Virus record (IMG/VR): IMGVR_UViG_3300035523_000148
Location: 1 to 34,260 of that record
Source: a virus
Direction: 5' to 3' (one strand)
DNA length: 34,260 nucleotides
Shown here: piece by piece, positions 24,950-27,826 of the stretch
Numbering within the stretch: the stretch's first letter is position 1
Layout of the letters: every line of letters starts with the position of its first letter
The notes under the pieces: model-generated
Databases searched by the model: none
Told to the model about the DNA's origin: nothing
The model's input: only the letters and a program-made list of their open reading frames with translations
Translations under genes and position numbers: made by a program

Positions 24950-27826
24950 TTAGCGAATCCTCGAAACGCAGAGGGCTGCTTCATAGCCGGAGGTGCCGCT
25001 GAGCGAGCTGATGTTGAGGCTGGCCGTCCCATTCTGATCGGCCCACAACTCAACAACAGTACCAGCAGCCAGATAAGTGAAATGCGTGGTCTGGATGCCG
25101 CAGAGACTGCCACCGTCGTTGGTGGGAGGCTCAGAAACAATGGCCTTCATCACGTCGTTGATCATGAAATAGACTCTGCGCGTGCCGTTCGGGTTGTAAT
25201 CGAACATCACCGAACCGATCAGGCTGTAATAACCGCTCGTCTGAATCGTCAGTTGGTTAGTAGTGCCGGTCAGGTTGTTGTTGGCATCGAAGTCTACTGT
25301 TCCAAGGACCACCTGCGCTGGCGTGTTGAGGATGATGCTCTGTGTCGTTGAGGAGACGATCCTAGCAGCGTCCAGTTGAGCAACCGGTCCCGTGGGGCCG
25401 ATTCCTGCTGGTGAGCCACCGGTCGGGCCTGTCAGTCCATTTGGACCCGTGACACCCATTCCCGTTGGGCCAATTCCGCCTGTTGGACCGGTCATACCAG
25501 CAGCGCCGGTCGGTCCTGTAGTGAAACCAGCAGGGCCTGTTATACTTGGTCCGGTGGGTCCAGGACCGCCACATGGCCCCTGATTTCCGCAGGGTCCAGT
25601 TATGCCAGCAGGGCCTGTTGGGGCTGCACCTTGCGGACCCATACCACCAGTCGCACCAGTGATCGTTCCAGGTGGGCCGGTAATAGTGCAGGAAACTCCC
25701 GTTGGACCGTTGCGGCCTGTTGGACCGGTTACTTGTGAATCTGGACCTGTCGGGCCTGTCCCACCGGTCGGACCGGTGCGACCAGTTGGACCCGTGGGGC
25801 CGGTTACTAGCGAAGTTGCGCCTGTTGGGCCTGTCTGACCTGTTGGGCCGGTGCGGTAACCTGTTGGACCGGTGGCGACACCAGCGGCTCCTGTAACGGC
25901 TGCTGCTCCCGTTGGGCCAGTGCTACCGGTTGGGCCTGTGCGAGAGCCGGTTGGGCCTGTGATGATGCCAGCAGCTCCTGTGGCTGCTACTGCGCCTGTC
26001 GGGCCTGTTCCGCCTGTCGGGCCTGTTACACCGGTTGGGCCGGTGGTCTGACTGATTGGACCAGTAGGGCCTGTACCGCCAGTCGGGCCTGTCCCACCTG
26101 TCGGGCCGGTGACCTGACTAATAGCTCCGGTCGGGCCTGTATTCCCGGTTGGGCCAGTAGGTCCGAGCGGACCATTTGCTCCACCAATCCCGGTTGGGCC
26201 TGTGGTAATTCCCGCTGGTCCGGTTAGAGAGCTTCGGTCTCCTGTTGGGCCTGTTCCACCAGTTGCTCCGGTGACTTGGCTAGTGGCTCCCGTGGGGCCT
26301 GTTCCACCAGTCGGGCCGGTGACTTGGGAAGTAGCTCCTGTCGGGCCGGTCCCACCAGTCGGCCCCGTGGTATTGCCGCACGGACCCATAGGGCCATTAC
26401 TGCCGATTCCACCGGTAGGCCCTGTTGCTCCTGTCGCTCCTGCTGCTCCTCCTGCTCCACACGGCCCACCTGAACCTGTTGTTCCTGTTAGTCCTGCTGC
26501 TCCTGTTGCTCCGGGTTTACCTACCGGGCCTGTTGAACTTGAGGCGGGTCCGGTCGGGCCTGTTCCACCAGTCGGGCCGGTGGTCAGGCTAGAGGGTCCT
26601 GTCGGGCCGGTTGCCGATCCATTCGGGCCGGTGACTTGGCTAGTAGCGCCGGTCGGGCCTGTCGGACCGGTAGAACCACCAGCGCCAACCGTGCTCGGAC
26701 CAGTAGGACCAGTGATAATACTCGCTGGGCCTGTCGGACCGGCCTCACCAGAAGTGATTGTGGTCTGGACGTATGAAGCGTTGGCTGTCCCTTCCAGATA
26801 GACAGTGACCGTGGCAGTTGCTGGACCTGAGACCCTCGCGGTGTAGACCTTGAACACCAGACGATCAGTGGACAGCATCGTGTAGCCGTTGCTGTCTGTG
26901 AAATCCCACTGCATTTCTGTGATGGTGGTGCCAGAGAAATTGGGAGAATAGCCCGTGCGTCTTAGCGTCTCACTAGAGCCGTCAGCGTGGCATGTATAGA
27001 GTTCAAATTTGAGTCTTGCTACTTCGTTGGAAGCGCTGGTCTTCACGTGGAAATGTCGATACGCGGTCCCTGCTGGGAGAGCTAAAACACCAGGTTGACC
27101 AGGATCTGTGGCGAATGAACCGATGAGCGTATCACCAGTGCCGGTGTTGGCCTGGACGATGGTAGTCTCTGCGTTTGGTGACGGATTGGGGAGAGCCTTG
27201 TAGTAGCCGCCCAAATCGGAGGCGTCTGTGTGGTCGAGGTAGAAGATTTTTCCAGCAGCAACGCCGCTCTGGCCGGTTGGACCAGTGGTGATGGACGCAG
27301 CGCCGGTCGCACCAGTGGGGCCAGTTGTTTGAGAGGCCGCTCCTGTCGGGCCAGAGACCATGGACGCAGCACCGGCAGCACCTGTCGGGCCGATATTACC
27401 AGTCGGGCCTGTCTGGATGGATGCGGCACCGGCAGCACCGGTAGCGCCAGTGACTGTTGACGCCGCGCCAGTCGGGCCGATTCCACCTGTTGGGCCTGTA
27501 GTTCCGGTTGGACCTGTTTGGGAATCGCCTTTTACGCCGGTCGGGCCGATTCCACCTGTGGGGCCTGTAGTTCCAGTTGGCCCTGTTGTTGAATCGCCCT
27601 TTACACCAGTCGGGCCGATTCCACCCGTGGGGCCTGTTACCTCGGAATCATCACCGCTCGGGCCTGTTGGACCTGTGGGGCCAGTTGGGGAATCTCCTTT
27701 AACACCAGTTGGACCAGTAAAGCTCTGGCCTGCTGGGCCTGTCGCTCCGCTTGGTCCGGTGATGTAGACAGTCGCACCGCCGAGCGCCCGAGGATTCGAT
27801 ATAGAGGCGGTGAGATTCTTTGCCAT
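24950..27826 (-). CDS. Long collagen-like fibre with C1q-like head, 958 aa
   Basis: Order: N-terminal anchor (1-22, [10 protein letters not shown] start), first collagen rod (about 23-190), a globular beta domain (about 191-358, with [20 protein letters not shown]), a second long rod (about 362-815), and a C1q/TNF-like head (about 818-958, [14 protein letters not shown], then [16 protein letters not shown]). C1q-like heads trimerise and often bind ligands, so this is a good receptor-binding fibre. Gly-X-Y repeats are mostly Gly-Pro-Thr and are broken at intervals by SQVT-type insertions. It has no clear ribosome site; a CAAACATAC motif is seven bases before the ATG. Confidence 0.85.
27471..27640 (-). 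repeat. 69-bp tandem repeats in the first collagen rod
   Basis: The string GTCGGGCCGATTCCACC begins at 27471, 27540 and 27609, an exact 69-base period. The encoded unit is 23 residues, [20 protein letters not shown] plus GPT, near the N-terminus of the long fibre. Length can change easily by recombination or slippage. Confidence 0.85.

Follow-up and report, generated by a model that had tools for sequence, protein, structure and literature searches.

A prophage-like record encodes a two-rod collagen fibre with a C1q-like head and an inner module that recurs among viral fibres

In BclA of Bacillus spores, a collagen rod is joined to a C-terminal domain of C1q/TNF-like fold; to our knowledge, it has no inner globule. 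Another design is found in EPclB of Escherichia coli prophages, in which two collagen domains are parted by a globular Pf2 repeat and accompanied by a C-terminal domain, as described in the available part of PMC3368898. According to the same part, EPclA forms trimers with a collagen stalk and a proven C-terminal trimerisation domain. The accessible portions of three further sources describe C1q domains in candidate receptor-binding proteins of marine phages (pelagiphages), reported in 2014, where this domain is the hypervariable part (PMC3909814), in a tail protein of cyanophage S-B05 (PMC7824862) and, separately from collagen shafts, in the fibres of extracellular contractile injection systems (PMC12923769). 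Interrupted prokaryotic collagens have been reviewed (PMC8968730) and phage receptor-binding proteins are documented to undergo domain shuffling (PMC10684548), in the available portions of both papers.

The DNA analysed here, referred to as the window, is the complete IMG/VR record IMGVR_UViG_3300035523_000148 of 34,260 bases. It contains a fibre gene whose product runs from a short N-terminus through a first rod, a globule and a second rod to a C-terminal head (Table 1), so that the rod-globule-rod-head design of the original prediction is confirmed by the ORF and by reading of the protein. Like EPclB of the E. coli O157:H7 prophages, the window fibre is apparently prophage-encoded and arranged as collagen, globule, collagen and C-terminal domain, with some breaks in the collagen. 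However, EPclB has PfN, a coiled coil, Pf2 and PfC (PMC3368898, available part), whereas a Pfam scan of the window fibre gave Collagen only, with PfN, Pf2 and PfC (PF08400, PF03406, PF06820) absent. Compared with EPclB as described in that part, the window fibre has an unrelated inner domain of predicted beta-sandwich fold, a C1q-like head and far more breaks. The proteins of the marine phages (PMC3909814) and of S-B05 (PMC7824862) are likewise phage adsorption proteins with a C1q-like domain, but the available portions of these accounts mention neither a collagen rod nor an inner module. With EPclB and the marine-phage proteins as precedents, the view that such a fibre is elaborate for a phage was overstated. 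The overall collagen fibre design is already known from other phages, and it is the inner module that represents an unnamed family.

Table 1. Features of the fibre gene and of its surroundings in the window.
Feature	Positions	Strand	Description
Serine-integrase match (phrog_95)	1-816	+	271-aa ORF
HNH-endonuclease-like genes (n=3), left arm	1510-2385, 3161-3769, 4161-4964	+	
Terminase large subunit	21165-22481	-	
Second collagen-like gene	24224-24922	-	232 aa; downstream neighbour of the fibre gene; unbroken rod of 27 triplets
Fibre gene	24950-27826	-	One ORF, 958 aa
C-terminal head, aa 816-958	24953-25381	-	C1q-like, profile match
C1q-type core motif of the head	25226-25291	-	FDx7(S/T)T(N/D)x(F/L)Tx4GxY, pattern match
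Rod 2, aa 360-815	25382-26749	-	127 triplets, 29 breaks as parsed, many S-x-x-T
Inner domain, aa ~192-362	26741-27253	-	CocE/PepX-like beta-sandwich (predicted); unnamed mobile viral module
Rod 1, aa 24-190	27257-27757	-	45 Gly-X-Y triplets, 10 breaks as parsed
Short N-terminus, aa 1-23	27758-27826	-	Read from sequence; presumed virion attachment
95-aa protein, directly upstream of the fibre gene	27850-28137	-	One hydrophobic stretch, holin-like by eye
579-aa ORF	28847-30586	-	Weak match to phrog_3123, function unknown
Serine-integrase match (phrog_95)	32758-34260	+	500-aa ORF

The fibre gene is located in the phage late region, near the terminase, portal and major head genes and on the same strand. 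PHROG matches of the whole protein are mostly labelled tail fibre (best phrog_5073, E 4.8e-46), with scores that are largely driven by the Gly-X-Y repeats. In residues 361-805, 124 Gly-X-Y triplets lie in runs of at least two, compared to a mean of 57.6 and a maximum of 76 in 1000 shuffles. Pfam Collagen matches the protein with an E of 1.8e-5 and 24.9 bits, slightly under the cut-off of 27.2, which we attribute to the breaks. No attachment family was recognised at the N-terminus, and a promoter and terminator scan of the fibre region gave nothing above chance.

The terminase, portal and major head genes lie on the (-) strand of the record, and two serine-integrase ORFs are found at its opposite ends in the same orientation. 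Because of this combination, the record looks like a prophage or temperate phage. It opens on a start codon and closes on a stop codon, as if it had been cut along gene boundaries. The terminase large subunit has distant matches only, the best over the whole length being Thermus phage Riverbug (24.5%) and Meiothermus phage MMP17 (~24%), and no near relative of it was found among viral contigs; the portal has one distant match. A megablast with bases 1-24000 retrieved no near relative of the phage either. The second collagen-like gene likely encodes a partner fibre, as suggested by its adjacency; its product differs from the fibre at the C-terminal end, while LTASI near the N-terminus is common to both. 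For the ORF at 23866-24381 (-), the program-made start is probably too early, with the phrog_1084 match starting at residue 55; a start at the later ATG (~24216) would abolish the overlap with the second collagen-like gene. The 95-aa protein has no family match in Pfam or PHROG.

The C-terminal head had been predicted to be C1q-like, and the profile comparisons support this, making a C1q-like domain very likely. Taken alone, the head has no direct match to Pfam C1q (PF00386) and none in NCBIfam, gives two chance matches in the PDB and retrieves nothing by tblastn of phages and plasmids at E 1 or by exact peptides in viral contigs. It is matched by PHROG 13989 (E 1.5e-8), labelled 'head and packaging: virion structural protein', and by PHROG 25122 (E 8.5e-5). 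Over 25 viral records, the only match of phrog_13989 was weak and involved a different part of the profile, and the profile had no match in 296 genomes of one phylum. A bacterial C1q profile, built from six of 12 matches and finding cerebellin, C1q and adiponectin in the PDB, scores 17.2 bits against the head, a value reached by none of 2000 shuffles. In hhalign, the single head reaches 41% with the C1q profile over residues 12-56, compared to 0.1% for the inner domain as a control.

Relatives of the head were fetched by a core motif derived from its sequence together with the bacterial C1q set; this motif has no match in 100 shuffles of the window. As a DNA pattern, it retrieved 21 viral stretches, all of which encode matches to the bacterial C1q profile. 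Fourteen of them were aligned, with L055 (incomplete), L062, L063, L066, L069, L064 and L072 omitted; the same domain is present in L066 and L069, and L064 and L072 are repeats of L061. The profile of these 14 other viral heads scores 48.8 bits against this head over residues 9-131, and none of 1992 scored shuffles was as high. Since the relatives had been selected by the motif, its 22 residues were also masked, after which the head scored 7.1 bits and one of 1953 shuffles matched or beat it. With this head included, the family is matched by Pfam C1q in ten of 15 members, finds adiponectin in the PDB (E 4.9e-12) and aligns with the bacterial C1q profile at 98.5% (hhalign, E 1.6e-15). A mixed profile of head and C1q sequences, which retrieved C1q and BclA chains from the PDB, was circular and was discounted. 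No rival fold was predicted for the head, because its single-sequence AlphaFold2 model came out at a pLDDT of 35. BclA-type proteins resemble the window fibre in joining a collagen rod to a C-terminal C1q/TNF-like domain, and BclA_C matches three of the 15 family members; however, BclA is a bacterial spore surface protein and the window head itself has no BclA_C match. C1q heads are usually terminal: of 49 ORFs with such a head, some of them bacterial yardsticks, 42 have it at most 25 aa from their end. In the viral collagen proteins L083, L070, L073 and L075, the C1q-like domain is found inside the chain and not at the tip.

The inner domain is the least ordinary part of the fibre, belonging to a family without a sequence-family name in the libraries examined. 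By sequence, the domain itself matches nothing in Pfam, PHROG, NCBIfam or the PDB, and an exact-peptide search was negative. The 25 aligned members of its family have no PHROG match and no credible Pfam match: single-member Pfam matches range from E 0.014 to 0.082, PDB matches have an E of 0.078 or worse, and the CocE/PepX C-terminal family is absent from the Pfam matches of the 25 members at E 0.1. AlphaFold2 with the 25 sequences produced an all-beta model with a pLDDT of 90.8 and a pTM of 0.87. In VIA-align, this model matches 8yzo (Z 15.0, rmsd 2.7, 155 aligned), cocaine esterase 3puh (Z 14.4, 162 aligned) and 1mpx (Z 14.2), and Foldseek pairs it with a CocE/PepX-type hydrolase (E 5e-6, TMq 0.70). 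The aligned ranges of 8yzo, 3puh and 1mpx are what we take, from these ranges and general knowledge, to be the C-terminal domains of CocE/PepX hydrolases. The inner domain is therefore confidently predicted to be a beta-sandwich like this C-terminal domain. These hydrolases resemble it in fold, at Z 14-15 over 155-162 residues, but they have no sequence-level match to it and the fibre has no hydrolase domain. With a fold match and no sequence match, the inner domain is thus described as like the CocE/PepX C-terminal family and is not filed in it. Structure matches of other classes score lower, with IBDV VP2 as the first such row (Z 9.2) and CBM15 at Z 8.8. A viral capsid origin is not claimed, although jelly rolls such as that of IBDV VP2 are among these matches. 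The best 20 viral models in BFVD (TMq 0.70-0.86) comprise one Solivirus protein and 19 proteins of uncultured Caudovirales, several of which carry the name collagen. The module is probably a carbohydrate-binding or spacer domain.

The inner module exists outside this phage: searches retrieved relatives of it from LR756502, an uncultured phage of 642 kb, from 29 viral loci and from one genome record of Mariniphaga. The survey covered 193 loci with 9611 open frames, 33 of which contain the module. It occurs in viral fibres with and without collagen and with differing C-terminal ends, and it recurs and is reassorted among viral fibres. By a count of the flanks, collagen is present on both sides in eight of the 33 ORFs (window, L003-L008 and L136). 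On a tree of 27 rows (six repeats of the 33 being dropped), in which several branches are long and single placements unsure, this both-sides context requires five changes, with at least three forced by well-supported branches. L003 and L004 share 96% DNA identity over 618 bp, which correspond to the module and end in the flanking collagen, and for the remaining pairs within L003-L006 the shared identity is 82-91% over 655-1009 bp. This sharing fits an exchange at collagen seams, for which recombination would be the presumed route. A search for viral proteins that combine the inner module with a C1q head, as called for with the original prediction, retrieved one besides the window protein among the 9611 frames, namely L024, a collagen-free viral open frame of 629 aa. 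The full combination of collagen, module, collagen and C1q head is found in one of the 9611 frames. In the freely available papers searched, no description was found of a family or fold for the inner module, of its reassortment or of this domain combination, nor of a CocE/PepX-like domain together with phage collagen, the fold name not being among the queries.

Based on these results, the protein is probably a trimeric fibre, built from swappable parts, that serves the virion of a temperate tailed phage in adsorption. By analogy with EPclA and EPclB (PMC3368898, available part) and with C1q proteins, it would most likely be a homotrimer and be located on the virion. The short N-terminus would anchor it to the particle, and the two broken collagen triple helices would act as long, semi-flexible spacers. 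The C1q-like head is expected to trimerise, to start the folding of the triple helix and to display the main receptor-binding surface. As a second module, the inner CocE/PepX-like beta-sandwich would probably bind carbohydrate or serve as a spacer, and the collagen stretches may be sequence-tolerant seams at which globular modules are swapped.

Other roles have to be weighed against this one. The fibre gene adjoins packaging genes and not recognised tail genes, and this neighbourhood, together with the filing of the head PHROG under head and packaging, counts against a location in the tail. A decoration fibre of the capsid or neck, aiding adhesion to surfaces or glycans without choosing a specific receptor, would suit a gene shortly upstream of the terminase genes and the label of PHROG 13989. 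It is nevertheless an unlikely reading: the whole-protein PHROGs are mostly tail fibre (with scores largely driven by Gly-X-Y), and the C1q proteins of marine phages have been argued to be receptor-binding in the accessible portion of PMC3909814. It is also conceivable, if doubtful, that the inner beta-sandwich binds the ligand and that the C1q-like head is a trimerisation and folding cap only. Carbohydrate-binding modules do resemble the inner fold at a lower score, but CBM15 at Z 8.8 is near the level that the tool calls common and the closest fold matches are hydrolase domains. The recurrence of the inner module with differing C-terminal ends and the trimerisation domain proven for EPclA (PMC3368898, available part) would agree with such a division of labour, while the hypervariability of the C1q domain in marine phages (PMC3909814, accessible portion) speaks for a head that binds. 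Finally, a lysogenic-conversion adhesin, displayed on the host cell instead of the virion, appears very improbable. Bacterial collagen-like adhesins are known and the record resembles an integrated prophage, but no signal peptide or anchor is apparent by eye at the N-terminus, the gene is surrounded by late genes of its own strand, and the relatives are tail-fibre-like viral proteins. A virion adsorption fibre is the role that we prefer.

Within this adsorption fibre, the breaks in the rods may be hinges, as far as can be read from the sequence. The original prediction placed SQVT/SQTT/SSLT-type breaks in rod 2; these are real and many, but breaks are not limited to rod 2. The last two counted there by the parser come from the frayed rod end. 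In total, 18 of the 39 breaks are four residues long, 16 of which read S-x-x-T, and the remaining breaks have 1-3 residues, mostly with a final Thr. The fairly even steps ascribed to rod 2 were not confirmed: the run lengths have a CV of 0.79, random placement gives 0.85, and the same evenness is reached by 35% of 5000 random placements. In rod 1, the spacing is more regular than expected by chance (CV 0.37; 0.28% of placements as even). Since tandem DNA repeats overlap both rods, with a 69-nt repeat in rod 1 and a 48-nt repeat in part of rod 2, the local evenness may come from tandem duplication. With nearly even chances, the breaks might also be tolerated by-products of repeat expansion and slippage without a hinge role, in line with the spacing of rod 2, which does not exceed random placement in evenness, and with tandem repeats of 48, 66, 69 and 87 nt spanning parts of the rods. 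The tightly restricted form of the breaks argues against this. The pattern GPTG-xx-(S/T)xx-T-GPTG, in which the last Thr is fixed and the first place limited, matches at least 120 viral stretches, and 110 of 120 fetched are in frame with collagen. Among the in-frame four-residue breaks of the fetched viral collagens, 260 of 263 read S-x-x-T, mostly STVT, with the final Thr forced by the pattern. The S-x-x-T type is therefore ordinary for viral collagens, and its restricted form suggests that the triple helix tolerates or favours this sequence.

The inner module represents a mobile domain family that was missed by sequence in Pfam, PHROGs and NCBIfam and is here given a likely fold. Tentatively, the fibre might bind at two points, with the mid-fibre beta-sandwich and with the C1q-like tip. 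In that speculative scheme, collagen repeats would be recombination seams that let unrelated viruses (tailed phages, among them the one of 642 kb, and a Solivirus on the basis of its structure match) share one pool of plug-in binding modules. If collagen repeats are indeed exchange seams, phages could acquire new host ranges in a simple way, which might also explain why they retain such rods.
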